Below are positions 6,250 through 25,901 of a stretch of DNA of 64,000 nt, in pieces (position 1 is the stretch's first letter; each line of letters opens with the position of its first letter). The position numbers were made by a program, and so were the translations under genes. A model generated the notes under the pieces. The model saw only the letters and a program-made list of their open reading frames with translations. It was not told where the DNA came from and ran no database searches. This stretch comes from Eubacteriales bacterium (lineage in GTDB: Bacteria; Bacillota; Clostridia; Lachnospirales; Lachnospiraceae), in the NCBI GenBank assembly GCA_030524175.1, contig JAUNHC010000002.1, forward strand, positions 1 to 64,000, read 5' to 3'.

Positions 6250-6482
6250 GAAAGATACAATTTGAAGAAAACGAATATCTGGTTATGGCAATGTTTGAAG
6301 AGAGTAATCGCTTGTCCACTATGGAAAAGATTGAGGAAGTAGTGCCATTTGTAGAAGACGATCCGGAGATTTATCCTCTGGTAATGACTACGATTGAAAA
6401 AATGAAGTGCATCTCTGATGATGATTTCAAAAAAATGGATCTGGAGCCATATAAACAGGAGACGGAGGAGGATACCGAATGA
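6246..6482 (+). CDS. Small acidic ICE protein of unknown function
   Basis: This 78-residue protein starts in an ATGA overlap with the polyprotein gene, and its own stop overlaps the next start, so the three genes are translationally coupled. It is acidic and rich in Glu and Met, without membrane segments or a known motif. Small proteins of this type often sit between ArdC and YodL genes in Clostridia ICEs (from memory). No function can be assigned. Confidence 0.75.
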   Translation: MRKIQFEENEYLVMAMFEESNRLSTMEKIEEVVPFVEDDPEIYPLVMTTIEKMKCISDDDFKKMDLEPYKQETEEDTE

Positions 6483-7321
6483 ATCTGAACCAATATGCAA
6501 TTTATCAGTTAAAGGCTATCCCGGAGAACAGAAAATTGCGGTTCCGTCCTTATAAGGTCATTGAGGCACAGAAACTGTCAGTACGAAGTGACAATTATCA
6601 ACAGGTCTATATTGGGATGGCAGTACCAGATGACAGTCCAAAAAGCATTTATGAAAAGCTTTTGAACAATCCACCAAAAAAATTTGCCGGTCATAGAATT
6701 AGTGTCAGTGACGTGATTGTACATAATAAGGGTGGTGTAACTTCTGCTTTTTATGTTGATAAGGATGGTTTTGTTGCTATTGCCGGATTTCTCCGCAGTA
6801 ATTCTTCAAGTACCCTTATTACGATGGAAACAAGGGACTATCCGATTGAAGGATGCAAAGGAAGTTGGGTGGCAACCGATGAGATAATCATTGACGGGAA
6901 ACAATTCTTTATGATGGAAAGCGAACAATATGGAAGAAATGCTGCCGCAGTAATTATTGATTCCGGCGGGAAATTTGTAACCGATGACTGTACGGAGGGG
7001 TTTGATGAAAAAGCTATACAGCAGATTCGGGAGTATCTTCACCCACCGGAAAGACAACCGAGGATTCCAGAGAAACCACCTTTGGAGATATATCAGAAGT
7101 ATTATGAGAACGGGGAATATCTCCGAAGTGCTGAAATCAGCGAAGAGCAAAACTATAATATGATTGATGGTCGTATCAATAACCAAAAGAAGAAGCCAAA
7201 GGTCACTGATCCGAAAAAAAGACCTTCTGTATTAAAATTGCTTCATCAGAAACAAGATGAATTGGAAAAGCGATATGGGAAACGTGAACGGGAAATGACA
7301 ATGGAGCGTAACCGTAAATGA
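6479..7321 (+). CDS. YodL-domain ICE protein
   Basis: This 280-residue protein repeats, in smaller form, the middle of the 1,727-residue polyprotein. A YodL-like domain covers about residues 5 to 105 (AIYQLK, HRISVSDVIV, AFYVDKDGF). A second module follows, with AAAVIIDSGGKFV near residues 155 to 170, matching AAVILNSDGELV in the polyprotein. It ends in the tail KRPSVLKLLHQKQDEL, which is shared with two upstream proteins. The start is an ATGA overlap with the preceding gene and a terminator follows the stop. The molecular role is unknown. Confidence 0.8.
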   Translation: MNLNQYAIYQLKAIPENRKLRFRPYKVIEAQKLSVRSDNYQQVYIGMAVPDDSPKSIYEKLLNNPPKKFAGHRISVSDVIVHNKGGVTSAFYVDKDGFVAIAGFLRSNSSSTLITMETRDYPIEGCKGSWVATDEIIIDGKQFFMMESEQYGRNAAAVIIDSGGKFVTDDCTEGFDEKAIQQIREYLHPPERQPRIPEKPPLEIYQKYYENGEYLRSAEISEEQNYNMIDGRINNQKKKPKVTDPKKRPSVLKLLHQKQDELEKRYGKREREMTMERNRK

Positions 7322-7326
7322 TGATG

Positions 7327-7370
7327 ATCAGGTTCCTTAATCACATATGATAAGGGAACCTGATTTTTTT
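7327..7370 (+). terminator. Rho-independent terminator of the ArdC/YodL operon
   Basis: ATCAGGTTCC pairs with GGAACCTGAT and is followed by seven T residues, directly after the YodL gene stop. Confidence 0.9.
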
Positions 7371-7422
7371 GTAATTGAAAAAAGACTTTTTCCCATTTTT
7401 GGGACAAAGTCCGTATTGAAAT

Positions 7423-7470
7423 AAAAAACGCAGGCAGAAATTATATTCGTTATAAAACTCTGCTTGCGTT
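7423..7470 (-). terminator. Terminator for the minus-strand HTH gene
   Basis: Read on the minus strand, AACGCAAGCAGAG pairs with a near-complementary arm (one G-T pair) and is followed by TTTTTTAT, immediately after the HTH stop codon. Confidence 0.8.
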
Positions 7471-7669
7471 AGTCTTTGTAATGTGTTGCAATGTCTTCAA
7501 TATTACAGTCAAGGATGTTGCACAGGGTGTTAATGGTATTCATGCTGACGCCTTCATTATGTTGCAACCGGAACAACTGTGCCTTGCTGATATTGTATTC
7601 CTTGTGAAGAGTATACTTCGTAACACCCTTCTTTTTCATGGTTTCCCATAGTTTATCATATTTTATCAA
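7469..7669 (-). CDS. Small Cro/CI-type HTH regulator
   Basis: The 66-residue protein is essentially one helix-turn-helix domain (KYTLHKEYNISKAQLFRL). It belongs to the short XRE-like regulators common on Firmicutes ICEs. It is divergent from the small membrane-protein gene at 7769, and a palindrome lies in the shared upstream region. A minus-strand TATAAT at 7702-7707 could be its -10 box. It probably represses itself and/or the divergent genes (inference). Confidence 0.85.
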   Translation of the reverse strand: MIKYDKLWETMKKKGVTKYTLHKEYNISKAQLFRLQHNEGVSMNTINTLCNILDCNIEDIATHYKD

Positions 7670-7729
7670 AGTATCCGCACCTTTTCGTTGTTTTTCCTTT
7701 ATTATAGAGTTATGATAGATAGTAACAAA

Positions 7730-7747
7730 GGTTCCACAATCGGAACC
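7730..7747. promoter_or_regulatory. Palindromic operator candidate between divergent genes
   Basis: GGTTCC, six bases, then GGAACC form a perfect inverted repeat between the HTH gene and the divergent membrane-protein gene. Position and symmetry fit an operator for the small HTH regulator; binding is inferred. Confidence 0.5.
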
Positions 7748-7768
7748 CTCACAAGAAAGGGGATAATA

Positions 7769-8218
7769 ATGAGAACGAAATACAGGGATTTTTGGGTTGT
7801 CAGAACATTAATGGTTCTGGCTGTTCTTCTAATCATTGTGGGTGTGATCGTTTATCGAAAGGAAAAAGTAGAGTATACAGGTGTACCAGATATGGTTTCC
7901 AGTTTTTCTTCAAATAATGACTATCACCTAATGATTGTTGCGAACAGCCGGGGTATATTAGACAAAGAAGATTTTGCAAAAAATGTAGTTGAGATGTGTA
8001 GAAACAATTCGTTTAAGAGCATGATATTTTCTACAGACCTGAAAGGTTATCCGGGGAGTCTTGATATTGATGTGTATTTGAGGAAGGACGATATTGGAAA
8101 AACTGAACCGGTATTGCAAATCCGTTTTCAGCCGGATGAATGGAATGCTGGATATAATATCAGGGATGATGTTGAACATTATTGTTTGTACGTGGATGAT
8201 GAGCAAATTATTTTGTAG
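7769..8218 (+). CDS. Small membrane-anchored protein, unknown
   Basis: The start chosen is the ATG at 7769, preceded by GAAAGGGG; an in-frame upstream extension back to 7688 lacks a good ribosome binding site. The 149-residue protein has one N-terminal membrane helix (about residues 10 to 30, TLMVLAVLLIIVGVIV). The rest, about 115 residues with alternating hydrophobic strands, is probably extracytoplasmic. No family was recognised. It is followed by another small membrane gene. Confidence 0.7.
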   Translation: MRTKYRDFWVVRTLMVLAVLLIIVGVIVYRKEKVEYTGVPDMVSSFSSNNDYHLMIVANSRGILDKEDFAKNVVEMCRNNSFKSMIFSTDLKGYPGSLDIDVYLRKDDIGKTEPVLQIRFQPDEWNAGYNIRDDVEHYCLYVDDEQIIL

Positions 8219-8234
8219 TAGAGGAGGGATTTTA

Positions 8235-8564
8235 TTGAGAGAAAAAATAAGAAAAAATTTGATTTTCACAAAGTTATCAATTGGAGCATATTGTGTTGCA
8301 CTAGTTTTCTTTTTATGTCCATTATTTATTCCGGAGAGAATATTGAACGGAGCAGTTACAGGAAGTTTATGTATAGGATTTTTTATTGCTGGAATGCTCC
8401 TTCAGGGAATACAGCTTTTGTTCGGAGGGTTGATGCCTTCTGATCTGTTTTTTATTTCAGAACCGCTTCTGACAGAAGAAGATGTTGAGGAATTAAAAAA
8501 ATATATTGAGGAATTTGACAAAGAGGAGAATAAATCCCCACTCACTTTGCAGAGTGGGGAATAG
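8235..8564 (+). CDS. Small two-helix membrane protein, unknown
   Basis: The chosen start is a TTG at 8235 because AGGAGGG lies six bases upstream; the longer frame from 8094 would overlap the previous gene by more than 120 bases. The 109-residue product has two hydrophobic segments (about residues 13 to 32 and 40 to 65) and an acidic C-terminal tail. The last codons lie in a GC stem (CCCCACTC with GAGTGGGG). It is convergent with the zinc-finger gene on the minus strand. Function unknown. Confidence 0.65.
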   Translation: MREKIRKNLIFTKLSIGAYCVALVFFLCPLFIPERILNGAVTGSLCIGFFIAGMLLQGIQLLFGGLMPSDLFFISEPLLTEEDVEELKKYIEEFDKEENKSPLTLQSGE

Positions 8565-8568
8565 GATT

Positions 8569-8808
8569 TTAGTATATTTCATAATCGTCGCTGTCATCTG
8601 TTTCGAGTGTAGTACATGAGAAACACATATTGGTTCCTGTAATAGCACTTCCGGCAGCCCAGATCGGGGAACCACAGACAATACATTTTGCTCCATTATT
8701 CTTTTCTTCCAGAGTTTGTCTGAGAGCTTTAATCAGTTCTTTTTTATTCATATCTTTATTGGATTTGATTGTCATGTCGGCAAATTTTTCGATGGATATG
8801 GGATGCAT
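8569..8808 (-). CDS. Small zinc-ribbon protein, unknown
   Basis: The ATG at 8808 has AAGGAAG upstream on the minus strand, giving 79 residues; the longer frame to 8871 has no supporting ribosome site. Two CxxC pairs (CIVC and CFSC) about 18 residues apart suggest a zinc ribbon. The tail is acidic. It lies downstream of the relaxase on the same strand's opposite side of the transfer region and is not clearly in its operon. Function unknown. Confidence 0.65.
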   Translation of the reverse strand: MHPISIEKFADMTIKSNKDMNKKELIKALRQTLEEKNNGAKCIVCGSPIWAAGSAITGTNMCFSCTTLETDDSDDYEIY

Positions 8809-8893
8809 TATTTTCACTTCCTTTGTTTTTGATTTGTGTTTTCCAAAATTATACATCTGATATTTTATCATATATTCATAGCATTGGATATTG

Positions 8894-10576
8894 TCATTTT
8901 GAAATATCCGATGCTTTTTCTTTTTCTGCTTGTCTTGTGACAGGAGTACCCAAAATGGAGTCCACGTTCTTAGTTACTGTACGAAGCTCTTTCTGGTATT
9001 CTTTGAAATAATTGTAGGTGTCTGTTTGGGCAAGTTTTTGTGTGATCAGCTTTTCTTTTTCTTCCTTCAATGATTTTATGGACGGAATTTTCTTATCTGG
9101 ATATTTATCCTTCAGATATTTAACTGCAGAATCGTATAGTGCCAGTTCTGCGGTATGTTCCTGCTGAAACTTTTTCTTGTTTCTGGATTTCATCATTTGA
9201 GCGAATACACCTTTGTTCGCATGATACTGACCGATGTAATGAATCTCCTCATTCAAAAGCTTTAATTTGCTCTCAGTGGCACGAAGTGTTTTTCTGGCAT
9301 CATTATACCGGGCAGTAATATCATCGTAAGTGTCCAGAAGATTTTCACGACTATCGTATCCATGTTCCTGTACATAAGCGATGGTCTTAGCCATTTCCTG
9401 TAGATTTGATATTTTGACTTTTCTTGCATAGGCTCTGCTCTGCTGTGCTTTAACACAAGTCTGTAAATCAATAACAAGATGTAAGTCGGATTTTATGAAC
9501 AGAATATCAGATGTGTCGTAGGAACCGTCTGGGTATTTTTCGGACATTGATGGAGGCTCTGGAGTAACTGATTGAGTAACACTGGAAACAGGAGCTTCTT
9601 TTTGAGGTTTGCTTTTTGCGGTCTCACGTTTTTTGTTTCCTTCAAAAAGCTGCGTGAGATGTTCTTTTCCGTATAAGGTTCCCAATGCTCTTTCGGAAAT
9701 GTTCTTGTTTCGTTCCGGATGAAGGTAGCTGAATCGCCCTCGTTTGTCTGTAAGGGTGATTTTGTATTTTTCTGAAAGTCCGTTCTGAAACTCTGCCATA
9801 TTTTGTGCAGCACTGGCAATATCTTCGATAGCATTTCGGAGATAATCTTTCTGCGTCTGAAAGACAGTGGTACGTGGTTTCAGCCCATCAGCAATAATCT
9901 TCTCGTTAAGACGGTCAAGATTTTCCTGCCCATGTCGTCGTGCTTTATATTCTTGATCGGTCACTTTCTTTTCAGCCGGTTGGAACAAATCTATCTGATG
10001 CAGGTTTTCCCTAATGCACGTATCCATCAAATCCCGCAAAAGATAGTTGAAGTAATCATTCGTGACATGATGTTTGTATCCGGCCCGGCTGTCACATTCC
10101 CGTTCCATGAACTCCTGTTTGGGAACATCCAGTTTTCGTACACTGTTTATTACGACATGAGTGTGGATGTTTCCACTTCCGCTATGACCGTCAAGGTGAG
10201 TACAGACAAAAGCCTGATGTCCCGGAAAATTCCTTTTGACATATTCCAGAGCAAGGGCCTGGGCTTTCTCTCCGGTCAGACCACGTTCATCCTTATCCTT
10301 GGGATCGAAGCTTATTATGTAGTGGTGGGATTTTATTTCACTGTATTTTTGGTTTTTATGGTATTTGGCATTTACAATCTCACATTCCTTATCAAAAGAG
10401 TATGGTTCACAGTTTACACCGTCAACCAGAAACTCCTTTCTCAGAACCCTCCGACCTTTTTCATCAAGGATTGGTTTCATGGTTTTCTCGTTATGTTCAA
10501 ATAACAAATATTTCATGGTAGCACCATAGTCTGCGTTTTTATTTGCGATGTGCTTCAATATTGCTATGATAATCAC
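8894..10576 (-). CDS. Conjugative relaxase, MOBP-like
   Basis: This 560-residue relaxase would nick oriT and pilot the transferred strand. The N-terminal 200 residues hold the relaxase domain: an early NADYG motif with a candidate nucleophilic Tyr, HHYIISFDPKD near residue 85, and the metal-binding histidine cluster HSGSGNIHTHVVINS. The C-terminal half is helical and coiled-coil-like and contains no visible primase or helicase domain. The start is a GTG overlapping the 3' end of mobC by 38 bases, so the two are probably co-translated. The candidate oriT lies just upstream of mobC. Confidence 0.9.
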   Translation of the reverse strand: MIIIAILKHIANKNADYGATMKYLLFEHNEKTMKPILDEKGRRVLRKEFLVDGVNCEPYSFDKECEIVNAKYHKNQKYSEIKSHHYIISFDPKDKDERGLTGEKAQALALEYVKRNFPGHQAFVCTHLDGHSGSGNIHTHVVINSVRKLDVPKQEFMERECDSRAGYKHHVTNDYFNYLLRDLMDTCIRENLHQIDLFQPAEKKVTDQEYKARRHGQENLDRLNEKIIADGLKPRTTVFQTQKDYLRNAIEDIASAAQNMAEFQNGLSEKYKITLTDKRGRFSYLHPERNKNISERALGTLYGKEHLTQLFEGNKKRETAKSKPQKEAPVSSVTQSVTPEPPSMSEKYPDGSYDTSDILFIKSDLHLVIDLQTCVKAQQSRAYARKVKISNLQEMAKTIAYVQEHGYDSRENLLDTYDDITARYNDARKTLRATESKLKLLNEEIHYIGQYHANKGVFAQMMKSRNKKKFQQEHTAELALYDSAVKYLKDKYPDKKIPSIKSLKEEKEKLITQKLAQTDTYNYFKEYQKELRTVTKNVDSILGTPVTRQAEKEKASDISK

Positions 10577-10931
10577 CTGCCAATCTTAAAACTTCTTCAC
10601 GTAATGAAAAAAGCTGTGTGATACATTCATGGATTTCATCTTGCATTGCCTGAGAGCGGATTCCTCCCATGTTAAAGTATTTTGCAATCTGGTTTAGATT
10701 GTTTCCGACTCTTCCAAATTCTGTGGTCAACTTCCGAAGTTCTTCAATATCTACAATGATAGGGCACTGGATTTCAATTTTACCTTCCAACACCTGTTTT
10801 CTGGCATAGACAGCAATCGGATAACCGGATTCTTTGGCATAGTTTGCTACCAGCTCATATTCCGGATCGGATAGACGGAGCATAATGCAGTTTTTCTTTT
10901 TCTTCAATACTTCCTTTTTGGGTCTTGTCAT
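10539..10931 (-). CDS. mobC: MobC-like relaxosome accessory protein
   Basis: This 130-residue protein has a basic N terminus (RPKKEVLKKKK), a ribbon-helix-helix-like segment (IMLRLSDPEYELVANYAKES) and the MobC-type helix with FGRVGNNLNQIAKYFN near residues 72 to 88. MobC proteins bind oriT DNA and help the relaxase reach the nic site. It precedes and overlaps the relaxase gene, the usual arrangement. Confidence 0.9.
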   Translation of the reverse strand: MTRPKKEVLKKKKNCIMLRLSDPEYELVANYAKESGYPIAVYARKQVLEGKIEIQCPIIVDIEELRKLTTEFGRVGNNLNQIAKYFNMGGIRSQAMQDEIHECITQLFSLREEVLRLAGDYHSNIEAHRK

Positions 10932-10989
10932 GATTTCTCCTTCCTTTGATTTTGAAAATTTGTCTGGCTATGGGGTGTCACAGCAAAAG

Positions 10990-11145
10990 CAATGATGCGA
11001 AGCATACTCCGTATCAGGATTCTCCTGTCTCTGTTAAGAGTTTGGAGAAGAAGATACGATGCGTCCACATTTATGTGGTAAGCCAAACCGCACAAATCCT
11101 TTTGGGCAGCAACCGAGGGAATGGGGAAACGGAATCCCCATCAAG
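10990..11145. other. Candidate origin of transfer (oriT) with nested inverted repeats
   Basis: There is no convincing gene between mobC (ending at 10931) and the small gene at 11353, about 420 bases. The region holds an imperfect inverted repeat (CGTATC-N4-TTCTCC at 11010-11025 against GGAGAA-N3-GATACG at 11044-11058). A perfect CCACAT-TT-ATGTGG follows at 11065-11078, and ATGGGGA-N7-TCCCCAT at 11121-11141. Its position next to mobC and the relaxase and its density of inverted repeats fit oriT. The nic site is not identified. Confidence 0.55.
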
Positions 11146-11244
11146 TTTGCCGGGGAACCAAAAGCCAGGAACTGGGTTTTGAGTTACTCTAGGCGATACT
11201 TGCTTTAGAATAGAATCCCCTATTAATACAGCCGTATCCGGCTA

Positions 11245-11300
11245 AAATGTTGTTGCTCCAAAAAAGAAAATTGAAAAAATTTCAGATTGGAACAACATTT
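11245..11300 (+). promoter_or_regulatory. Long inverted repeat upstream of the small DUF6870-like gene
   Basis: AAATGTTGTT (11245-11254) and AACAACATTT (11291-11300) are perfect complements, and flanking TCCA/TGGA extends the pairing. The loop is A-rich. It ends 52 bases before the ATG at 11353. It could be a leader structure or an operator. Confidence 0.45.
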
Positions 11301-11352
11301 CCTGCTCTGTGGGCTGTATAGGCAGAAGCCTATGCAGAAAGGAGCAGTTACC

Positions 11353-11616
11353 ATGGAAAGAGTAGGTCATGAGATTACATTAGAAGATTTAAAAGAAATG
11401 TCAGAAGTGGATGTCCGAACCGTGGACAAGAGTACTCTGGTTGATGTGAATGAGGTACATATTCATACAGATCTGCCACAGAAGGAAAGAATAGAGGATT
11501 ATATCTGTCAGATAAAAAATCCTTATTGCTACATATCCCATGGGGTGGTAGTCAAGATAAGTTTTACAGGAAAGTGTACGTTAGAAGAGAGCCTGAGCAG
11601 GTGTATCTCATTATGA
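11353..11616 (+). CDS. DUF6870-like small protein
   Basis: The ATG at 11353 follows AAGGAG, giving 87 residues. The sequence (VDVRTVDKSTLVDVNEVHI, then IKNPYCYISHGVVVKISF) matches, from memory, small DUF6870-type proteins found beside recombinases in Lachnospiraceae mobile elements. It has no membrane segment or catalytic motif. It lies 160 bases upstream of the recombinase operon and may belong to it. Function unknown. Confidence 0.65.
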   Translation: MERVGHEITLEDLKEMSEVDVRTVDKSTLVDVNEVHIHTDLPQKERIEDYICQIKNPYCYISHGVVVKISFTGKCTLEESLSRCISL

Positions 11617-11777
11617 TGATAGAGGAAAAAAGGTTGAAAAAATGAAAAAAGATGTAGCGGTGAGCCGGAAGTTATGTTAATATGGTGTTGGGTCAAAATT
11701 TAAAAGCATTCAAGAAGCCATGAATTTCTTGGTTTACGCTGCCAGTCGGCATAGTAAATTAGGAGGTTGATGGCTTT

Positions 11778-13433
11778 ATGTATTTCAGTAAAAAGTCTAT
11801 TTTAGCAGCGGATTACCTAAGACTATCCAGAGAAGACGGAGATAAACTGGAAAGTGATAGTATCCGCAATCAAAGAAGTCTCATTAACGATTTTGTGAAA
11901 CAGCACCCGGAAATCACATTGGTCGATGAATATATTGACGATGGTTACAGTGGAACAAACTTTGAACGTCCAGCATTCAAACGGATGATTGAAGATGTGA
12001 AGAAAAAGAAAATCAACTGTATTATCGTCAAGGACTTATCCAGACTTGGAAGAAATTATATTGAAACAGGTCGGTATTTGGAAAAGATATTTCCATTTCT
12101 TGGGGTAAGGTTTATTGCAATCACAGACCACTATGATAGTGCCGCAGAATCGGATGATGCAGATCAGATCATTGTTCCTTTTAAGAATCTTATTAATGAT
12201 GCTTATTGCAGGGACATCTCAATTAAAATCCGAAGTCAATTAGATGTAAAAAGAAAAAATGGTCAGTTCATTGGGAGCTTTGCCGGGTACGGGTATTTAA
12301 AAGACCCAAAGAACAAAAATCATCTTGTCATAGATGAGTATGCAGCTGATATTGTTCGTCTTATTTTCCATTTAAAACTGGATGGGTATAGTTCTCAGAG
12401 AATTGCAACAAGATTGAATGAAATGGGGGTTCTTCCGCCTTTAGAGTATAAGCGAAGTTGTGGAATGAAGTATAATAGTGGATTTCGCTCAGGGAAAAAT
12501 CCAAAGTGGGCGGTCACAACGGTAAATCGTATTCTTACGAATGAGTTGTATACGGGAACCATGGTACAGGGTAAGAATCGGAAAATCAATTACAAAGTAA
12601 AAGAGTGCAGACCGGTTGAAGAAGAAAACTGGATTCGTGTGGAAAAGACGCATGAAGCGATTATAGCAGAAGAAATATTTCAGTACGTACAGTCTTTGTT
12701 GGAACTGGATACACGAACTGCACCGGAAGAAGAATCTGTTTATTTGTTTTCTGGTTTTTTACGGTGCGGGGATTGTGGTCAGAATATGATAAAGCGAAGC
12801 ACTACGAAAAAGGGGAAACGGTATTATTATTACCATTGCTCCACATACAAAAATGGCGATGGATGCAGTTCTCACTTAATCAGTGAAAAGTCAGTTTATG
12901 AAGTTGTTCTGGATGCTGTTCAAAGACAAGTTTCTTTGCTGGTAGAGGCAGAAAAAATTATCCAGAGAAGTGGAATAGATAATTATAAAAAGACAGAACT
13001 TGTTTCCATCGAAAAACAGTTAATTGCTCTGCATGATGAAGTGGAAAGATATAAGGATTTGAAAGTTCATTTATATCAAGATATGTTGGATAACGTTGTA
13101 TCCAGAGAAGAATACCATGAGTATAATCGAAGATTCACTGATAAGCTGCACAGTGCAGAAAATGCGAAACGGGAATTAGAGAAAAAGAAAGAGAAGGTAT
13201 CTATTGAAGGAAAGCGGGAACATCCGTGGATCGAAGATTTCAAAAGGTATCAGACTATTACACAGCTTGACCGAAAGGCTGTTGTTACATTAATAGATAA
13301 AATTATCGTGTACGGAAAAGACCGTCTGGAAATTCAATTTAAATACGCAGACGAGATTCAAGAAATGATGGAAGTAGCACAAAATATCAAGGAAACGGAA
13401 GAAATGAAAGGTGGGTTTAGATGCGGTGCGTAA
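11778..13433 (+). CDS. Large serine recombinase 1 of a four-gene array
   Basis: This 551-residue large serine recombinase cuts and rejoins DNA through a 5'-phosphoserine link. The resolvase domain (residues 10 to about 150) has the nucleophile in YLRLS (Ser17), GYSGTNFERPAF, and the arginines of DLSRLGRNY. A recombinase DNA-binding domain follows. The zinc ribbon is intact (CGDCG near residue 330, then HCSTYKNGDGC), as is the coiled coil that controls synapsis (about 390 to 480). AGGAGG lies 11 bases before the ATG. It overlaps recombinase 2 by 13 bases and heads a translationally coupled array. Confidence 0.9.
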   Translation: MYFSKKSILAADYLRLSREDGDKLESDSIRNQRSLINDFVKQHPEITLVDEYIDDGYSGTNFERPAFKRMIEDVKKKKINCIIVKDLSRLGRNYIETGRYLEKIFPFLGVRFIAITDHYDSAAESDDADQIIVPFKNLINDAYCRDISIKIRSQLDVKRKNGQFIGSFAGYGYLKDPKNKNHLVIDEYAADIVRLIFHLKLDGYSSQRIATRLNEMGVLPPLEYKRSCGMKYNSGFRSGKNPKWAVTTVNRILTNELYTGTMVQGKNRKINYKVKECRPVEEENWIRVEKTHEAIIAEEIFQYVQSLLELDTRTAPEEESVYLFSGFLRCGDCGQNMIKRSTTKKGKRYYYYHCSTYKNGDGCSSHLISEKSVYEVVLDAVQRQVSLLVEAEKIIQRSGIDNYKKTELVSIEKQLIALHDEVERYKDLKVHLYQDMLDNVVSREEYHEYNRRFTDKLHSAENAKRELEKKKEKVSIEGKREHPWIEDFKRYQTITQLDRKAVVTLIDKIIVYGKDRLEIQFKYADEIQEMMEVAQNIKETEEMKGGFRCGA

Positions 13434-14920
13434 GTTATACAAGAACTACATCCTGTAAGAGGAAAAACAGTATTCCATCTGACATTATCCAACAACAGAA
13501 TCGTCACATTCAGGATTATATACAATCCCATGGATGGAAACTGGTGGCAAAATATAGTGATCGGAAAAAGGATGATAATGAAAATGCTGCTTTTGAATCA
13601 ATGACATTGGATGGAATCAACCGGAATTTTGATATTGTCATAGTGGATAGCCTTGATCGTTGTGGTAAATATATTTCTTGTGCGGAAGATGTCCTTGTGA
13701 AAACATTCTTTCCGGCTGGACTCCACTTTGCAGTAGTACAGGATGATTTTTGCAGTATTGGAAAAAGTCGTGAAGATATTGAGGAATATTTTAAAAAAGA
13801 AAAAACGGAAATACTGGTAAGCAGTATGCGAGAGAATACAGTCCGTGAACAGATTGAAGGTTATTATACAGTTCATGATGAAAAGTATGGCTACATCCTT
13901 TCAGAAGACCGGAAAGAACTTCTTGTTGAGGAAGAGGCAGCTAATATTGTACGTGAAATTTTTCAAATGGTTTTGGACGAGATACCGGTTAAGAAAATTG
14001 CGGACATTATGAATGAAAGAGGAATAGAATCTCCAGTGGTTCATAATGCAAGAGTTGGGCATAAACATTGGCCAGATTATGATAGTAAGTGGAGCGAAGG
14101 TTCTGTAAGAAGAATATTGAGTTGTACTGCCTATGATGGCTATTGGAAGAAAATGATCAATGGTGAGCTTTGTACAGTCCAAATCACACCTATATTGGAA
14201 CAGGGAGTGTTTGAAAAAGTTACGAAGTTAATTAATAGCAGGACAACAACAAAAAATGCGGCTGGAGGGAAACCAGGACCATTTGTGAAAAAAATAATTG
14301 ATGCAGAAACTGGAAAGCCACTTTATCTCAGAAATTTCCGAAGCGGAGAATCAGCTTTTGTATTTGATCCAAAGATTAATGCACTTCCCAAAAGTAAAAG
14401 AACCTTTATTAAATTGGAAGATGTTACCCAGACCGTAAAAAATGCCATTCGTTTAGAAATGGATATTGCTGAAAAAATGCAGTGTTATCTGGAAACAGAA
14501 AAGGCACAACAATTATTACAGAGAGAAATCCAACAATATTCAGAAAAGGCATGGATGATATTTCGTGAGATGGAGCAGGAAGAAAAGGATCGCATTCCTC
14601 TTTATGAGAGCTTTCGGGATAAGAAAATAGGAGAAAGCGAGTATCAGGAGAAGAAAGAAGAAATCCAGAATCAGCTTCAAATGTATGAGATGGATTTCCA
14701 GAATTTAATGGATAGACTTGAGAATGTCAAAAAAGCATACAGCAAAGAAAATGAATGGCTAAAAACATTTCAGAGGGTGGAAATCCCAGAAGAATTGGAA
14801 TTACAACACGTTAAAAAATGGGTTGAAAAAATTGTTGTTTCCGATTTTAGAGAGGTTCATGTATATCTGACAATGCAGAAATGGAAAAATTATTTTCCTG
14901 ACGAATGGTTGGAGGGATAA
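13421..14920 (+). CDS. Degenerate serine recombinase 2, probably non-catalytic
   Basis: This 499-residue paralogue keeps the recombinase architecture (N-terminal resolvase-like fold, DNA-binding domain with WSEGSVRRILSCTAYDGYW, long coiled coil), but key residues differ. The nucleophile position reads YTRTT, with Thr10 aligned to the catalytic Ser, unless Ser11 substitutes. DLSRxGR is replaced by SLDRCGK, so the second Arg is Lys. The GYSG...RP loop is gone. The zinc-ribbon cysteines are absent; that region reads LYLRNFRSGESAFVF. The frame is intact and overlaps recombinase 1, with AAGGTGGG before the ATG, so it appears to be maintained as a protein. A structural or regulatory role in a heteromeric complex is an inference. 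Confidence 0.85.
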   Translation: MRCVSYTRTTSCKRKNSIPSDIIQQQNRHIQDYIQSHGWKLVAKYSDRKKDDNENAAFESMTLDGINRNFDIVIVDSLDRCGKYISCAEDVLVKTFFPAGLHFAVVQDDFCSIGKSREDIEEYFKKEKTEILVSSMRENTVREQIEGYYTVHDEKYGYILSEDRKELLVEEEAANIVREIFQMVLDEIPVKKIADIMNERGIESPVVHNARVGHKHWPDYDSKWSEGSVRRILSCTAYDGYWKKMINGELCTVQITPILEQGVFEKVTKLINSRTTTKNAAGGKPGPFVKKIIDAETGKPLYLRNFRSGESAFVFDPKINALPKSKRTFIKLEDVTQTVKNAIRLEMDIAEKMQCYLETEKAQQLLQREIQQYSEKAWMIFREMEQEEKDRIPLYESFRDKKIGESEYQEKKEEIQNQLQMYEMDFQNLMDRLENVKKAYSKENEWLKTFQRVEIPEELELQHVKKWVEKIVVSDFREVHVYLTMQKWKNYFPDEWLEG

Positions 14921-14923
14921 GAA

Positions 14924-16621
14924 ATGGCAAGGAAAAGCAGAAGAAACAAAAGTGCAGAATCAGAGAATAGCCAAAACATAGAAATTATAAGCGAGCATTT
15001 AATAGATACTGCGGCATATGTTCGATTGTCTGTTGAAAATGGTGGAAACGAAACAGATGAAACTTTAGTTGTTCAGCAGATGATGGTAGAAAAGTATATT
15101 GAGGAGCATCCAGACTTAAAATTGGCAGGTACCTATGTAGATAATGGGTTTAGTGGCACAAATTTTGACAGACCGGCTTTTTTGAAATTGATGGAAGATG
15201 TGCGTTCCGGAAAAATTCAATGTATTGTTGTGAAGGACTTGTCTCGATTTGGAAGAGATTATCTGGAAACAGGATATTATCTGGAAACTATTCTTCCTAA
15301 ATTAAATGTCAGATTCATTGCAATTACGGATGATTATGACAGCTCCAGAAAAGAAGACCGGGAGAATATCAGTGTTCCTCTGAAAAATATGGTTAATGCC
15401 ATGTATGCAAAAGATATGTCTAAGAAGATTTTGGCAGCAAAAGATGCACAGAGAAAAAAAGGAAATGTAACCTTGAGTAAAGTGGCATTTGGATATAAGC
15501 GTTCGGAGGACAGACACAGACAGGAAGTCGATGAAGAAATTGCACCTTTTGTAAGAATGATGTTCCAGTGGTATATGATGGGGGTTAGTAAAAAGAAAAT
15601 TGCGGACCGGTTAAATCTGATGGGAATCGTAACACCGGGACAGAGAGAAAAAACAGGAGAGTTTACGATTCCACTGGATCAGACAAAATGGCGTGCTGAT
15701 ACAGTAGATAAGGTTCTATTGAATCCAACGTATGCCGGAGATATTGTGACTGGTAAGTTAAGACAGGCATTGTATAAAGGAGTAAAGCAGTATAAAACTT
15801 CACAGGAAGACTGGAATGTTCAGAAAGATATGCATCCTGCAATGATTGCGAGAGACGATTATGACGAATTAATGGCAAAAAAGAAAGAAACAAGGGAAAT
15901 AATAAAAAGCAGGCGTAAGAAGTATATGAATGACAGGGAGAAATACAAAGATTGCTTTCCTGGCATGGTACGTTGTGGAGATTGTGGACGTCCGATGTAC
16001 TGTGTCCGATATACCCATAATTATGTGACAAATGAGAAAGTGGGAATTTATTATACCTGTTCGGCACAGAATTATTCCACTAATTATTGTGGGCAGAAAG
16101 TAGAAGAGAACTTTTTAAAGATGGTTGTCGTGGATCAGATTCAACTTCTAATAAAAAGTATGTGTGACCGGAAAAAAATATTGCAGAAAATGAAAAGTGA
16201 TACGAGTGAGAAAAATGCTTTTTATGAGGCAGCAGCAAAAGTCCGGATACTGGAAAGAAAAATAGCACAGACAGAAGAAAGAAATTCCATGCTGTATGAA
16301 GATTTTGTGGGTGGAATTGTTGAGAAAGAAGATTTTGATATGATGAAGGAACGATATATACGTGAATTGTATATTCTTAGGGAAGATCTTCAGGCAGCAA
16401 AGCAGGCTCAGAGAATGTTAGAAAAGAAAACAGACAGATATATGGACATGGTGAGTGATCTTGAAAATTATCTAAATGATAGAAGTTTCAATGAAAAACT
16501 TGTACAGGAACTTGTGGAATATGTGGAAGTGTATAAAAACGGAAATGTCCATGTATGTTTTAAATGCGATGATAAATTTCAGCAGATAACAGAATTGATG
16601 GGAGGTGTAAAGCGTGAGTAA
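14924..16621 (+). CDS. Large serine recombinase 3 of the array
   Basis: This 565-residue protein has a 28-residue basic, Ser-rich N-terminal extension before the resolvase domain. The catalytic set is intact: YVRLS (Ser36), GFSGTNFDRPAF, DLSRFGRDY. It has a zinc ribbon (CGDCGRPMYC, later YTCSAQNYSTNYC) and a long coiled coil near residues 420 to 500. GGAGGG precedes the ATG, three bases after recombinase 2 stops. The 3' end overlaps recombinase 4 by 8 bases. Confidence 0.9.
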   Translation: MARKSRRNKSAESENSQNIEIISEHLIDTAAYVRLSVENGGNETDETLVVQQMMVEKYIEEHPDLKLAGTYVDNGFSGTNFDRPAFLKLMEDVRSGKIQCIVVKDLSRFGRDYLETGYYLETILPKLNVRFIAITDDYDSSRKEDRENISVPLKNMVNAMYAKDMSKKILAAKDAQRKKGNVTLSKVAFGYKRSEDRHRQEVDEEIAPFVRMMFQWYMMGVSKKKIADRLNLMGIVTPGQREKTGEFTIPLDQTKWRADTVDKVLLNPTYAGDIVTGKLRQALYKGVKQYKTSQEDWNVQKDMHPAMIARDDYDELMAKKKETREIIKSRRKKYMNDREKYKDCFPGMVRCGDCGRPMYCVRYTHNYVTNEKVGIYYTCSAQNYSTNYCGQKVEENFLKMVVVDQIQLLIKSMCDRKKILQKMKSDTSEKNAFYEAAAKVRILERKIAQTEERNSMLYEDFVGGIVEKEDFDMMKERYIRELYILREDLQAAKQAQRMLEKKTDRYMDMVSDLENYLNDRSFNEKLVQELVEYVEVYKNGNVHVCFKCDDKFQQITELMGGVKRE

Positions 16622-18224
16622 AAATGGCTTGTATCTAAGATTGTCTATCGCAGATGGAGATCTGGGGAATGATAATAAGGACGAAAGCAATAGTATTGAC
16701 AACCAAAGAACTCTTCTTGTGAGTTTTCTGCAGGACAGAGATGATCTTACGGATGAGTATATTGAATATGTGGATGACGGATACACAGGAACTAATTTTG
16801 AACGTCCGGGATTTAAGCGTATGATAGAAGATGCCAAAACCGGTAAGATAGATACGATTCTTGTGAAAGACTTTTCCAGATTCGGAAGAGACTATATTGG
16901 CGTAGGGGACTATTTGGAACAGGTGCTCCCTATATTGGGAATCCGTTTCATCTCGCTAAACAATAATTATGACAGCAATGATTATTTGGGAAGAACCATG
17001 GGAATGGATATGGCAATTCATAATCTGGTCAATAATCTTTATAGTAAAGACATCTCAAAAAAATTAAAAAGCTCACTAAGAGTTAAATGGAAGAATGGTC
17101 AGGGGGCGGGAGGAAAACCGCCATTTGGCTATTTGAAAGACAAGGAAACGGGTGTATGGATGATTGATCCGGTAGCACACAAATATGTAAAAATGGTGTT
17201 TGATAAAGCCATTGAGGGGTGTAATACTTCACAGATTGCCTATTATATGAATGAACAGAAGATTCCAACACCGGGAAGATATAATAAGGAAAATGGTCTG
17301 ACACACTATGGATACAATCAGAAAATACCTGAGTCGGAAGTGTTATGGGATTGTAATATGATTCGTACTATTCTTGGCAGATATGAATATACAGGAGCTT
17401 TAGTGCGGGGAAAAAGACATAATATTGCAGTTGGAAGTAAAGTGACCAGAAAATCCAAAGACAAAGATGTTGTTATCACGAGAAATGTACATCCGGCGAT
17501 AGTGTCAGAGGAAGAATATGAGATGGCTCAGGCAACGATATTATTTGTGAAAAAGCCAGATTATCGTGGCTCGAAGAAATTTCCATTAAAAGGGAAAATC
17601 AGATGCGGGAATTGTAAGCGTTCCATGGGAATATCTGAATCCGGTGCAAATGTCCGATTTTATTGTCCACATAAAATGCAGACTGGTAAGTTTTCTCAGT
17701 GTTCTGACGAAATGGTGACAGCTTCTGTAATAGAAGGAAATGTCTGGTATGCATTAAGACGTGTTCTTCAGTTATTGGATGCTATGCAAGTTGAGATTGA
17801 AGAAAAGACAACCAATCTGGATAGTATCAGAGGAAAAAAGATAAAGCAGTTGGAAGCTGAAAGCAATGTATTAAAGAGTGAGAGACTCCGTCAGTATGAA
17901 GCATATGCGGAAGGAATCATTAAAAAGGAAGAATACTTAATAATTAAGCAGCAGATAACGAGTAAAATGAACAATATCCAATCCGAAATAGAAATGCTCA
18001 CACATTTATCCGAAGAGGAAGAAGCTTATAAGAATAAGGTCGCAACGGCTGTTGAGTTACTGGATGGGGAAATGCAGCATGAAAAAATAACACAAGAGCT
18101 GGCAGATGCCACAATTGATACGGTATATGTATACAACAAAAAACGGATAGAGGTAGTATTCAAGTTTGATGACATTCTGATGAAGGCAATTGAAGAATAC
18201 CAGAAGGGAGAAAAGATAGTATGA
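16614..18224 (+). CDS. Large serine recombinase 4 of the array
   Basis: This 536-residue recombinase starts at a GTG with GGAGGTG upstream, overlapping the end of recombinase 3. Catalytic motifs are complete: YLRLS (Ser11), GYTGTNFERPGF and DFSRFGRDY. The zinc ribbon is CGNCKRSMG with a second half YCPHKMQTGKFSQC. A coiled coil follows near residues 400 to 470. The last codon overlaps the start of the downstream membrane-protein gene. Whether each recombinase acts alone or in a mixed complex cannot be told from the sequence. Confidence 0.9.
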   Translation: MSKNGLYLRLSIADGDLGNDNKDESNSIDNQRTLLVSFLQDRDDLTDEYIEYVDDGYTGTNFERPGFKRMIEDAKTGKIDTILVKDFSRFGRDYIGVGDYLEQVLPILGIRFISLNNNYDSNDYLGRTMGMDMAIHNLVNNLYSKDISKKLKSSLRVKWKNGQGAGGKPPFGYLKDKETGVWMIDPVAHKYVKMVFDKAIEGCNTSQIAYYMNEQKIPTPGRYNKENGLTHYGYNQKIPESEVLWDCNMIRTILGRYEYTGALVRGKRHNIAVGSKVTRKSKDKDVVITRNVHPAIVSEEEYEMAQATILFVKKPDYRGSKKFPLKGKIRCGNCKRSMGISESGANVRFYCPHKMQTGKFSQCSDEMVTASVIEGNVWYALRRVLQLLDAMQVEIEEKTTNLDSIRGKKIKQLEAESNVLKSERLRQYEAYAEGIIKKEEYLIIKQQITSKMNNIQSEIEMLTHLSEEEEAYKNKVATAVELLDGEMQHEKITQELADATIDTVYVYNKKRIEVVFKFDDILMKAIEEYQKGEKIV

Positions 18225-18553
18225 CGTTTAGAAATTTTATGTGTAAAGGTGTTTTAGTATTTGCAGGGCTTGCATTGCTCGGATGGTTAGGACAGTATAT
18301 TTATATTGTGAATGGAGAAATTGACTGGTTCAGATTAATGCTGGTATATGGAATTCCTGTTGGGATTCCACATATGTTTCTTGTTATTCCCTGGCATTGG
18401 GATGTTTCGGGTATGCTTTGTATGATTGCATTGTGTGTGATTGTAGGCGGTATGTTCGGATGCGTGATCGCAGTATGGCTTGGAATAAGAGCAGTATGGT
18501 ATATAGTCGGTTTTCCAATCAGCAGGATTGTGACAGTACATAGAAGAGAGTAA
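18221..18553 (+). CDS. DUF6050-like small membrane protein
   Basis: This 110-residue protein starts in an ATGA overlap with recombinase 4. It has three or four hydrophobic segments (about residues 8 to 32, 38 to 58, 63 to 85 and 88 to 102) and a short basic C terminus. The pattern matches, from memory, the DUF6050 family, which often follows recombinase genes in Clostridia ICEs. A terminator closes the operon just after it. Function unknown. Confidence 0.7.
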   Translation: MTFRNFMCKGVLVFAGLALLGWLGQYIYIVNGEIDWFRLMLVYGIPVGIPHMFLVIPWHWDVSGMLCMIALCVIVGGMFGCVIAVWLGIRAVWYIVGFPISRIVTVHRRE

Positions 18554-20917: not shown

Positions 20918-21853
20918 ATGGCAGAAATGATTTTTGGAATTGATCATGGAAATGGGAATATGAAGGGAGAAAATGTATGCTTCCCATGTGGACTTGTCAG
21001 ATACACTTCGGAGCCGGGAAGGTTTATGAATGAAGATATTCTTGAGTATCAAGGTACATTTTATACCCTTTCAGAAACAAGGATGCCATTTAAGGCAGAT
21101 AAAACAGTAGATGAAGACTACTTTGTTCTTACATTGTTTACATTAGCATTGGAAGCAAAGAGTAGAGGACTTACCTTGACTGGAAAAGACGTTGTGCTTG
21201 GTGTGGGATTGCCACCAGCAGATTTTGGACAGCAGGCTCCGAGCTTCAAACGATACTTCACGGAACATACCAAACATGGTATTTCTTTCAAATTCAATGG
21301 AAAATCAGTAAACTGCTATTTGAGAGATATATTTGTAAGTCCACAGAATTTTGCAGCAGTTATGTGTTTTAAATCAAGTCTCTTGAAAAAATATCGAACA
21401 GTAAACTGTATTGATATTGGGGATGGTACAGTGGATCTTTTAGTAATCAGAAATGGAAAACCGGATTTATCCGTTCGTGTCAGTGACCGTTCTGGTATGG
21501 CAGTTCTCCGTTCTGAAATATCGAATGCAATTCAACAAAATTATGGTATTCACTTGGATTCTTCTGATGTGGAACAGGTACTGATGCAGGAAGAAACTAT
21601 TTTAGATGAAGAAATAGTTCTTGAGATTCAGAGAATGGCGGAGAATTGGTTACAGCGTATCATCAATAAATTACATACCCATGTGACAGATTTCAGAACA
21701 AATCCGGCGGTTTTTCTTGGGGGAGGAAGCCTTCTGTTGAGAAAACAGATTGAAAACTCCACGGAATTTAAATATGTAGAATTCATTGAAGATGTTCGTG
21801 CCAATGCCATTGGATACGAAAAACTGACTGCAGCACGTCTGCGTAGAGGGTAG
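20918..21853 (+). CDS. ParM/StbA-like actin ATPase
   Basis: This 311-residue protein shows actin-fold ATPase motifs: phosphate-1 GIDHGNGNMKG (residues 7 to 17), phosphate-2 IDIGDGTVDLLVI (about 164) and an adenosine loop FLGGGSLLL (about 266). ParM-type filaments push plasmid copies apart when bound by ParR at parC. AGGAGG precedes the ATG. The ParR-like gene follows within 10 bases and the iterons lie upstream, so a complete type II partition module is present. On an ICE it would stabilise the excised circular form. Confidence 0.85.
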   Translation: MAEMIFGIDHGNGNMKGENVCFPCGLVRYTSEPGRFMNEDILEYQGTFYTLSETRMPFKADKTVDEDYFVLTLFTLALEAKSRGLTLTGKDVVLGVGLPPADFGQQAPSFKRYFTEHTKHGISFKFNGKSVNCYLRDIFVSPQNFAAVMCFKSSLLKKYRTVNCIDIGDGTVDLLVIRNGKPDLSVRVSDRSGMAVLRSEISNAIQQNYGIHLDSSDVEQVLMQEETILDEEIVLEIQRMAENWLQRIINKLHTHVTDFRTNPAVFLGGGSLLLRKQIENSTEFKYVEFIEDVRANAIGYEKLTAARLRRG

Positions 21854-22893: not shown

Positions 22894-22936
22894 TACTGCT
22901 GATAAGTAGTAAACTACATATCAGCAGTATTCTTTT
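22894..22936. terminator. Bidirectional terminator between convergent genes
   Basis: TACTGCTGATA pairs perfectly with TATCAGCAGTA, followed by TTCTTTTT on the plus strand. The stem lies between the hypothetical gene and the convergent caspase-like gene. Confidence 0.85.
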
Positions 22937-24300: not shown

Positions 24301-24362
24301 AAGAGACCTCCATAGTTTACAATGTAAGAATGCAAGAAAGCAAGACCGCAAAAGTATAAAAG

Positions 24363-24396
24363 AAGGATGCAGAAACATTAGAATTTCTGCATCCTT
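24363..24396 (-). terminator. Perfect 13-bp hairpin between the XRE and caspase-like genes
   Basis: AAGGATGCAGAAA and TTTCTGCATCCTT pair perfectly around an 8-nt loop, and on the minus strand TTCTTTTA follows. It lies immediately after the XRE stop and could terminate or attenuate read-through into the caspase-like gene. Confidence 0.7.
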
Positions 24397-24929: not shown

Positions 24930-25901
24930 TTGGAGAGTACAATTTCAGGTGTTGAGTTTTATTCAAATGTGAAAGCCTCGGAGGTGGAATGGATATGGTA
25001 TCCATATATTCCTTGCGGAAAAATTACAATGTTGCAGGGTGATCCGGGCGAAGGAAAATCAACACTGATAATTCATATTGCAGCGATATTGACAAAAGGC
25101 GGGTATTTACCGGATGGGCAAAAGATTAAGAAGCCAGAAATGGTTATATACCAATGTTCTGAAGATGGAAAAGGAGACACGATAAAACCAAGACTTGAAC
25201 AGGCTGGGGCAGATTGTAATAGAGTTGCATTTATTAAAGAAGATAATGGGGAACTCACACTGGAAGATGAACGCATAAAAAATGCAATCATACAGATCGG
25301 TGCAAAGATGGTTGTACTTGATCCGATCCAAGCATTTATTGGTCATAATGGAAATATGGCTAATGCAGTAAAAATGAGAGAAACATTGTCTAAATTATCA
25401 AAAGTTGCAGAGGAAACGAATTGTGCAATCATATTAGTTGGTCATATGACAAAAACCAATGGTGGAAAACAGATTTATAGGGGACTTGGCAGCATTGATA
25501 TAGCTGCAGCTGCAAGAAGTATTCTTATGGTATCCAGAGATAAGGAAGATCCGTGGAAAAGATATATGTTTCCGGTTAAATCAAGTCTTGCACCAGAAGG
25601 CGAGCCGATTGGATTTGAGTTAGACAAAGAAAAAGGGTTTCATTGGATTGGAAAATGCCAGATAGATATTGAAGAATTATTGACCGTTGAAAGAAGTACA
25701 GCAAAAAAGGATATAGCGATTAAATATCTGCAAACGATGTTGGCTACGGAAGATTTACCAAGTACCTATATATACGAAAAAATGAAAGAATATGGTATCT
25801 CAAAGAGGACTGTGCAGGAAGCAAAGAAGATTGCTGGAATAAAAGCGTATAAAAAAGGAAAGAATTGGTATTGGCATATGGAAGTGGAGGACAGCATATG
25901 A
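24930..25901 (+). CDS. RepA-like RecA-fold ATPase
   Basis: This 323-residue protein starts at a TTG behind a CCGGGGG stretch. It is an AAA_25/RepA-type hexameric ATPase: Walker A GDPGEGKST near residue 37, Walker B MVVLDPIQAF near 128, and a later LVGHMTK sensor-like motif. The last 70 residues resemble a winged-helix DNA-binding domain (SKRTVQEAKKIAGIKAYKKG). Such proteins act as replicative helicases or initiation factors for plasmids and ICEs. The gene overlaps the integrase gene by four bases, coupling replication and integration functions. Confidence 0.85.
   Translation: MESTISGVEFYSNVKASEVEWIWYPYIPCGKITMLQGDPGEGKSTLIIHIAAILTKGGYLPDGQKIKKPEMVIYQCSEDGKGDTIKPRLEQAGADCNRVAFIKEDNGELTLEDERIKNAIIQIGAKMVVLDPIQAFIGHNGNMANAVKMRETLSKLSKVAEETNCAIILVGHMTKTNGGKQIYRGLGSIDIAAAARSILMVSRDKEDPWKRYMFPVKSSLAPEGEPIGFELDKEKGFHWIGKCQIDIEELLTVERSTAKKDIAIKYLQTMLATEDLPSTYIYEKMKEYGISKRTVQEAKKIAGIKAYKKGKNWYWHMEVEDSI

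Follow-up and report, generated by a model that had tools for sequence, protein, structure and literature searches.

A large serine recombinase homologue that lacks its catalytic serine is conserved within tandem recombinase arrays of Clostridia

The window (the whole analysed stretch of 64,000 nucleotides) contains a tandem run of large serine recombinase (LSR) genes, R1-Psi-R3-R4, of which Psi is the second member (Table 1). Several LSR genes in the same orientation are found together with a relaxase on a mobile element, as in the tandem serine-integrase modules of ICEs. In such modules every member is expected to have the conserved serine, and Psi departs from them in lacking it.

Table 1. 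Features of the recombinase cassette and its surroundings, with positions in the window
Feature	Position	Strand	Basis or remark
MobA/VirD2-type relaxase of the mobile element	8894..10576	-	
MobC/NikA-like mobilisation protein	10539..10931	-	
DUF6870 gene, precedes the cassette	11287..11616	+	
R1 (recombinase 1), intact LSR with YLRLS, DLSRLGR and zinc ribbon	11778..13433	+	ORF, Pfam, motifs
Start of Psi overlapping the R1 stop by 13 nt	13421..13433	+	Same start/stop overlap in 20/23 loci
Psi, LSR homologue without catalytic Ser, Arg45, Arg71 and ribbon cysteines	13421..14920	+	ORF, Pfam, residue alignment
YTRTTS, degenerate nucleophile motif with Thr for Ser	13436..13453	+	The Ser that follows varies across the family
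KYSDRKKDDNENAAF, in the place of the DDGYSG..F.RPAF loop (YSG..F.RP)	13550..13594	+	Alignment
SLDRCGK where DLSRxGR is expected	13649..13669	+	Alignment
Recombinase (DNA-binding) domain PF07508	13931..14239	+	Pfam; present in 19/19 family members scanned
Zinc-ribbon segment minus its cysteines (limits approximate)	14291..14404	+	Alignment
C-terminal region of Psi (limits approximate)	14453..14755	+	Aligned to the solved SPbeta integrase YokA by family profile
R3 (recombinase 3), intact LSR	14924..16621	+	ORF, Pfam, motifs
R4 (recombinase 4), intact LSR	16614..18224	+	ORF, Pfam, motifs
DUF6050 small protein	18221..18553	+	

The Psi frame is open over 499 codons. By its domains, with PF07508 (E=1.5e-11) following a resolvase-like domain, Psi is an LSR homologue. 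Its match to Resolvase PF00239 (22.5 bits) remained below the cut-off of 23.3, and no Zn_ribbon_recom match was found in the Pfam scan of the window copy, while R1, R3 and R4 matched all three families. The earlier note had described YTRTT in place of YxRxS, SLDRCGK, a missing loop, the absence of ribbon cysteines, intact neighbouring recombinases and a coupling of Psi to recombinase 1, and these could be confirmed, the coupling as a gene overlap. The arginine of Y-x-R and the first arginine of DLSRxGR are retained, so that the losses in the window copy are Ser10, Arg45 and Arg71 (gamma-delta numbering).

No solved chain was matched by the window copy alone; with the family profile, an alignment to YokA was obtained that reaches position 477 (E=2.5e-15), and the region of integrases corresponding to the C-terminal region of Psi carries the coiled coil. 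YokA and phiC31 Int are single active proteins; Psi is related to them through this alignment but differs in having no catalytic residues and, in the clade of the window copy, no zinc cysteines. The best NCBIfam match of Psi was CcrB, yet with 29 bits it lies far under the cut-off of 900. CcrA and CcrB of SCCmec are two different LSRs encoded together, both with an intact active site.

Searched with the Psi protein alone, viral and genome contigs yielded no relatives, and an alignment of four proteins (A1) was needed. Of 30 plasmid and phage records listed, seven were opened and one, MT837953, has Psi; the six others (L009-L014) carry LSRs with the serine motif, and the remaining 23 were judged by listing alone. 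An order-wide search, with 30 loci examined, gave Psi in L027 and L028, while the matches in L029-L056 were R1- or R3-like LSRs, that in L048 being N-terminally truncated. All remaining order-wide matches were below 170 bits, whereas Psi frames score at least 273 on the profile of the same four proteins. L063 and L065 (from G933) are intact LSRs and not Psi. Left out before counting were L072 (a fragment with no more than the final 82 residues of Psi), L001-L003, L027 and L064 (copies of the window), L005 and L006 (judged by length and place to be the contigs of L016 and L026), L071 (same contig as L061) and L068 (99.9% identical to L069). The resulting set comprises 25 Psi proteins, namely the window copy and 24 relatives, which come from other Clostridia, from IMG/VR contigs and from one human-fecal contig; 23 of these 24 share only 20-38% identity with the window copy. 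The dead recombinase is not peculiar to this window.

None of the 25 Psi proteins regains the catalytic serine, as compared to 123 of 126 other LSR frames in which the motif is present (at least 300 aa and 150 bits, N-terminal side uncut; 14 edge-cut frames and two frames below 150 bits were excluded). The three exceptions have technical causes, two being N-terminally truncated and the third carrying YVRLS at residue 114 behind a long 5' extension. All 46 scorable partners from the same cassettes as Psi have the serine. The arginines are also depleted, with Arg45 retained in 3, Arg68 in 9 and Arg71 in 2 of the 25. Judged by the serine and arginine set and by the ribbon cysteines, Psi does not qualify as an active LSR. 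PF07508 was found in every one of the 19 Psi proteins scanned and PF00239 was detectable (E<=0.01) in 13, while the Pfam zinc ribbon was detected in one. The loss of the zinc ribbon claimed in the earlier note holds for the cysteines in the clade of the window copy, where they are gone, but the segment itself aligns and is not deleted; cysteines are partly retained in the Faecalibacterium-containing clade, and 7 of the 25 Psi proteins keep the first pair. Within the pseudo-catalytic domain, the family shows its own set of invariant residues.

It is very improbable that Psi still acts as an enzyme through another nucleophile. A serine directly follows the lost position in 15 of the 25 proteins, but the same position holds proline in 8 and alanine in 2, and the Arg45 and Arg71 columns have largely lost their arginine. 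Ser11 was rejected as a shifted nucleophile on this count.

The dN/dS ratio of Psi was 0.081-0.218 in 10 pairs and 0.062-0.123 in 6 further pairs, with frames taken stop to stop and thus including up to 33 codons upstream of the Psi start that overlap R1. These values indicate that Psi is under purifying selection. When the Psi proteins of the window and Blautia luti are compared, identity is highest (81%) in the dead catalytic domain. In most pairs the evolution of Psi is faster than that of its partners; for the window and L015 its ratio was 0.081 against 0.051-0.054, and within Psi the pseudo-catalytic domain (0.104) is less tightly constrained than the recombinase domain (0.043). No internal stop occurs in any of the 25 frames, while neutral simulation adds a mean of 5.6 stops at 0.1 substitutions per site. 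A decaying pseudogene could account for the missing catalytic residues and the faster evolution, but it is hardly credible given these ratios, and it is in effect refuted by open frames in relatives as distant as those described above. The pseudo-enzyme part of the earlier reading is thus upheld by the consistent absence of the serine, the variable Ser11, the lack of broken copies and a dN/dS of 0.06-0.22. The other part of that reading proposed that Psi guides or regulates the active recombinases. Psi looks like a non-cutting member kept by selection in the recombinase rows of gut-bacterial mobile elements and not like a dying gene.

The position of Psi is constant. An R1-type LSR lies directly upstream in all 23 loci that reach upstream, and an R3-type LSR directly downstream in all 23 that reach far enough. 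In a tree calculated without near copies (L023, L058, L059, L061), the partial R4 of L022 and later finds (L066-L070), Psi formed one clade (support 100), and so did each of the R1, R3 and R4 partners; all trees were quick searches with SH-aLRT support only. Distances of Psi and R1 were correlated at 0.958 (n=23), and those among partners at 0.927 (R1-R3), 0.844 (R1-R4) and 0.796 (R3-R4). Psi therefore diverges in step with its partners, a pattern that linkage alone would also yield. Tandem LSR arrays without Psi exist as well (L009, the first cassette of L019, L101), which shows that Psi is not generally needed.

One neighbouring frame below 150 bits, in L033, proved to be a dead LSR and was the starting point of a second set, in which five loci carry a different dead LSR (PSI-B) in similar arrays. 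In three of the five (L088, L089, L098) an LSR without the whole catalytic domain ("headless") directly precedes PSI-B, and L099 has a ribbon/C-terminal-only frame. Psi and PSI-B fell on one side of a branch in the full-length tree and in a tree of the C-terminal part (support 94), in both cases on unrooted trees with many long branches, and with five R1-like rows lost by the C-terminal cut. The full-length tree further omitted L010, L013, all rows of L025, L036, L040 and L045, and Psi, R1 and R3 of L020; L098 was found later. Tentatively, Psi, PSI-B and the headless and ribbon-only proteins could be a non-catalytic LSR lineage of dedicated architectural subunits in Clostridia tandem arrays.

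Taken from sequence comparison, Psi is best read as a subunit, conserved though catalytically dead, of a heteromeric LSR machine, probably a DNA-binding, architectural one (probability about 0.6). R1 and Psi are probably produced together because their genes overlap. The C-terminal part of known serine integrases carries a coiled coil, and Psi, which keeps the recombinase DNA-binding domain and appears to retain this part, may bind DNA and contact R1 through such a coil. Since each subunit cuts its own strand, a subunit without nucleophile cannot occupy the crossover position, and an architectural role is therefore the most likely one: Psi, alone or paired with R1, would hold accessory DNA at both ends of the element and assemble or select a synapse where the cutting is done by R1, R3 and R4. 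In favour of this reading stand the missing serine as against the intact partners, purifying selection, the single clade, the fixed genomic position, the gene overlap, the retained PF07508 domain, divergence in step with the partners, and the second set of dead and headless LSRs. For phiC31 integrase, the accessible text of PMC5814800 states that the isolated C-terminal domain can form inter-dimer contacts. Loss of the ribbon cysteines in most Psi proteins may weaken half-site binding and counts against the architectural reading. The faster evolution of Psi, its less tightly constrained pseudo-catalytic domain, the Psi-free arrays, the failure of the window copy by itself to match a solved chain, and linkage as another source of the parallel divergence, with partners correlated among themselves nearly as well, were also counted against it.

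A role of Psi as directionality factor, altering the trajectory of the R1 coiled coil and so allowing excision, is unlikely. Known directionality factors are usually made separately from the integrase, and the overlap of the Psi start with the R1 stop, seen in 20 of 23 loci, suggests constant co-production, which would suit a switch less well than a structural subunit. In favour of such a role, it is the C-terminal region of an integrase to which the family profile of Psi aligns, and the phiC31 factor sits at the base of the integrase coiled coil, as given in the accessible part of PMC5814800. Quite unlikely, too, is a dominant-negative brake, by which inactive Psi-R1 dimers or repression of the operon would set a threshold for movement. 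The overlap with R1 and the dead active site would suffice for it with no further assumptions, but the headless and ribbon-only proteins could not make catalytic-domain dimers, and the invariant residues of the pseudo-catalytic domain exceed what simple poisoning seems to require.

Serine integrases are taken to act as one protein with a small unrelated factor for excision. We found no description of a dead member in serine-integrase arrays; the triplets themselves are known. In the streptococcal ICE triplets, all 42 serine integrases have the conserved serine in the text available from PMC4701971; like the arrays described here they form a one-orientation LSR row on a conjugative element with trees clustering by row position, and unlike them these arrays hold an extra dead member, forming its own clade, between the first and the next LSR. 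The architectural reading also resembles the Tn3 and Sin resolvase synaptosomes, in which subunits at accessory sites need no cutting: according to the accessible text of PMC9943657, Tn3 resolvase recombines well when S10A subunits occupy accessory sites II/III, and not when they occupy site I. One protein fills both roles there, whereas separate paralogues would do so here, at accessory sites that are hypothetical.

If such a non-catalytic lineage has indeed been built into the arrays, a division of cutting and holding between subunits would have evolved in serine integrases, and the synaptic machines would be heteromers with four to seven different paralogues. A conserved dead paralogue that is linked to an active one, together with headless relatives, would mean that several subunits can share the work of an integrase. 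The reason for having serine integrases in tandem would become directly testable by removal of single genes, and Psi may provide a natural means to influence site choice or direction in tool integrases.

As to the limits of the elements, a candidate end near L024:13207 in Faecalibacterium-type loci was rejected, the break being a variable gene. In L066 and L069 homology ends about 180 nt past the small gene 3' of R4; a search for the other end returned only L066 itself. By eye, the gene 3' of R4 in L066 resembles that for the DUF6050 small protein, and the frame at which homology ends in L069 resembles a sugar transferase. In Vescimonas (L101) a DUF6870 gene also stands ahead of an LSR triplet without Psi.

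Active-site loss is fixed in the Psi family, the homologues of large serine recombinases (LSRs) that lack the catalytic serine. In Pfam, R1, R3 and R4, the serine-intact LSRs around the window copy of Psi, matched the Resolvase, Recombinase and zinc-ribbon families; Psi matched Recombinase (E=1.5e-11), stayed below the cut-off for Resolvase and gave no ribbon match. The residues reported for this copy in the earlier note were confirmed: YTRTT and SLDRCGK stand at the motifs, and the YSG..F.RP loop and the ribbon cysteines are absent. Two arginines are retained here, that of Y-x-R and the first one in DLSRxGR.

LSR cassette and adjoining genes in the window
Feature	Position	Strand	Description
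MobA-type relaxase + MobC	8894-10931	- (opposite to cassette)	before LSR run
DUF6870 gene			between relaxase/MobC and LSR run
R1	11778-13433	+	LSR gene, first of four in row
Psi	13421-14920	+	LSR gene, second of four
R3	14924-16621	+	LSR gene, third of four
R4	16614-18224	+	LSR gene, fourth of four
DUF6050 gene			after LSR run

The serine loss was found to be conserved among homologues, as the pseudo-enzyme subunit proposed in that note would have it: of 25 Psi proteins compared, the one in the window plus 24 relatives (copies and one fragment removed), none carries the catalytic serine, the position being V in 11, T, I and L in three each, and Y, M, E, Q and K in one each. The following residue (Ser11) was rejected as a conserved substitute nucleophile, since it is S in just 15/25 and otherwise P (8/25) or A (2/25). 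In the columns Arg8, Arg45, Arg68 and Arg71, which we take to follow gamma-delta resolvase numbering, arginine is kept in 21/25, 3/25, 9/25 and 2/25 proteins, respectively. The catalytic serine is present in all 46 scorable R1, R3 and R4 proteins of the same cassettes, a score outside which the R1 frames of loci L019 and L028 fall for want of the catalytic region. Among the other LSR frames of the fetched loci (at least 300 aa and at least 150 bits, not edge-cut, later-found second-set loci not included), 123/126 have the serine motif; of the three exceptions, those in L019 and L048 are N-terminally truncated, and the frame in L059 has a long 5' extension, with YVRLS at residue 114. Two LSR frames below 150 bits were excluded, one of which, in L033, is motif-less and belongs to the second set. 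Zinc-ribbon loss holds for the window copy, but it is not a hallmark of the family, since 7/25 Psi proteins, all from the Faecalibacterium-containing clade, retain the first two ribbon cysteines, which are gone in the window's clade.

Single-protein scans found no Psi relatives. Searching 397 family genomes gave distant relatives at the same cassette position, and MT837953, a human-fecal contig from a phage collection, carries four LSR genes with Psi second and the last gene cut by the contig end. An alignment of four Psi built after these matches served as the next search profile and recovered 12 loci from genome contigs, including Blautia luti, Faecalibacterium and uncultured Clostridia, and one additional locus (L028) from the order sample. 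IMG/VR contigs held 11 Psi with a catalytic part (L057-L062, L066-L070). Identity to the window Psi is 77% for Blautia luti and 20-38% for the remaining relatives. In overlapping samples drawn by profile or protein, with at most three candidates scored per genome, Psi was present in 3/397 family genomes (window genome, G018 and G270), in 2/392 order genomes (window genome and G711) and, at the strict cut-off, in the window genome alone among 391 class genomes and among 398 phylum genomes. All 19 Psi scanned fell into the general integrase family of PHROGs. NCBIfam had no fitting model; the nearest were the Ccr and XisF models, the window Psi scoring 29 bits against CcrB (cut-off 900).

Serine-integrase triplets are known from streptococcal ICEs, and that study reports the conserved serine in all its 42 serine integrases (PMC4701971), in contrast to the dead Psi found here. 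Among the matches listed from the open-licence literature, judged mostly from summaries, no description was found of a catalytically dead member of such an LSR run, or of a headless one (without the whole catalytic domain).

An R1-type gene lies immediately upstream of Psi in 23/23 loci reaching that far (L021 and L057 begin at a contig edge) and an R3-type gene immediately downstream in 23/23 of sufficient reach (L017 and L018 end too early; L025 has the first 124 residues of R3 alone). On contigs that extend far enough an R4-type frame comes next; that of L019 is split and that of L020 short. The coupling to R1 seen earlier in the window recurs as an overlap of the R1 stop and the conserved Psi start by 1, 4 or 13 nt in 20/23 loci; gaps of 2, 14 and 24 nt occur in L025, L026 and L062. 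Pairwise distances correlated between Psi and R1 (r=0.958, n=23), Psi and R3 (0.946, n=22), and Psi and R4 (0.869, n=13), values reached by 0/999 permutations; between partners, correlations were 0.927 (R1-R3), 0.844 (R1-R4) and 0.796 (R3-R4). This shows that the cassette is inherited as a unit and is not proof of protein contact. In a 93-LSR tree, the 17 Psi (support 100), 15 R1 (99), 14 R3 (99) and 8 R4 (100) of Psi cassettes formed single clades, each repeating the same two main groups.

An R1 search covered ten genomes, not a free sample because they were picked for holding Psi or PSI-B, the dead LSR of the second set. Five matches outside the window genome, at 49-89% identity, all lay inside Psi cassettes, and three at 45-48% lay outside them (G1470:C73 was assigned from coordinates). 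The sole R1 match above 50% in phage and plasmid collections was the Psi-bearing MT837953. Psi-less triplets with the serine motif in all three members occur in L009, L019 and L101. In L019 (578-12883) the triplet is the first cassette, beside a Psi cassette with an N-terminally truncated R1 frame and a split R4; in L101 (5550-12853), on a Vescimonas fastidiosa plasmid, DUF6870 precedes the R1-R3-R4 triplet and more recombinase frames follow. At about 8270-8399 of L069 the homology to L066 ends, at a frame resembling a sugar transferase by eye (SLVGPRP), possibly an element end and target. Phage-tail-like frames were seen by eye a few kb past the Psi cassette of L061 (L075/L076, same IMG/VR contig).

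Psi is clearly under constraint, though in most comparisons it evolves faster than its partners. The dN/dS below 1 that the earlier note set as a check was obtained across pairs (0.06-0.22): ten pairs gave 0.081-0.218, and another six, formed by four of the loci L066-L070, gave 0.062-0.123; several dS values were saturated. Between the window and Blautia luti it was 0.081 for Psi and 0.054, 0.051 and 0.054 for R1, R3 and R4; Psi was the faster in most pairs, except against R3 in L023/L008 and R4 in L066/L069. For Psi of the window and Blautia luti, identity is highest in the dead catalytic domain (81%, dN 0.110), and dN/dS is lower in the recombinase domain (0.043) than in the catalytic domain (0.104). 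Neutral simulation of the window Psi at 0.1 substitutions per site gave a mean of 5.6 stops and left 1/500 copies open.

Each subunit of a serine recombinase cuts its own strand, and a dead subunit therefore cannot occupy a crossover position. All 19 Psi scanned retain the recombinase domain. With the profile of the family an alignment to the solved structure of YokA was obtained (E=2.5e-15), though no solved chain was matched when the window protein was used by itself. Tn3 resolvase tolerates S10A subunits at its accessory sites, II and III, but site I does not accept them (PMC9943657). In serine integrases the subunit contacts for synapsis and for direction are made by the coiled coil, and the C-terminal domain of phiC31 integrase is able, when isolated, to form inter-dimer contacts (PMC5814800). 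The main rival readings are that Psi would act as a directionality factor or as a brake. From the dead-subunit argument, the Tn3 and phiC31 precedents, the kept recombinase domain and the YokA alignment, we infer that Psi is most likely a dedicated architectural subunit, which would be made together with R1.

The second dead LSR, PSI-B, was traced from the odd neighbour frame in L033 and occurs in L073, L080/L099, L088, L089 and L098. Its nucleophile region reads YARRKF in four loci and YVRRIF in one, with no Ser. Seven LSRs stand in a row in L088 (G202:C16:9000-26000, 1907-13196): R1, R3, R4, a headless LSR beginning immediately before the recombinase domain, PSI-B, R3 and R4. A headless gene lies immediately upstream of PSI-B in 3/5 loci; in L088 and L089 its start and the end of the R4-type gene ahead of it overlap, so that it is hardly a frameshift product, and in L098 it follows a short gap. 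Upstream of PSI-B, L073 has an R3-like tail and L099 (G175:C14:4000-19000) an R4-type gene, with a 251-aa frame of zinc ribbon and C-terminal part alone one gene further up (5630-6382). The headless proteins group with PSI-B in a single clade (99), and one branch parts Psi and this clade from all intact LSRs in the tree (99 at full length, 94 for C-terminal parts). Because the branches are long, a common origin cannot be firmly claimed; either way, tandem arrays have retained non-catalytic LSRs over a long time or on more than one occasion.

Further along the window, an actin-like (ALP/MreB-like) protein of a kind found in plasmid segregation is encoded at 20918-21853, and the syntenic stretch of the Blautia luti locus has an equal-length frame in its place. 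A caspase-domain protein (Peptidase_C14, E=6.7e-25; 22936-24378, minus strand) sits between the cassette and a further lone LSR (25865-27751), which adjoins an AAA ATPase (24930-25901) and perhaps belongs to another mobile element beside or within the present one.
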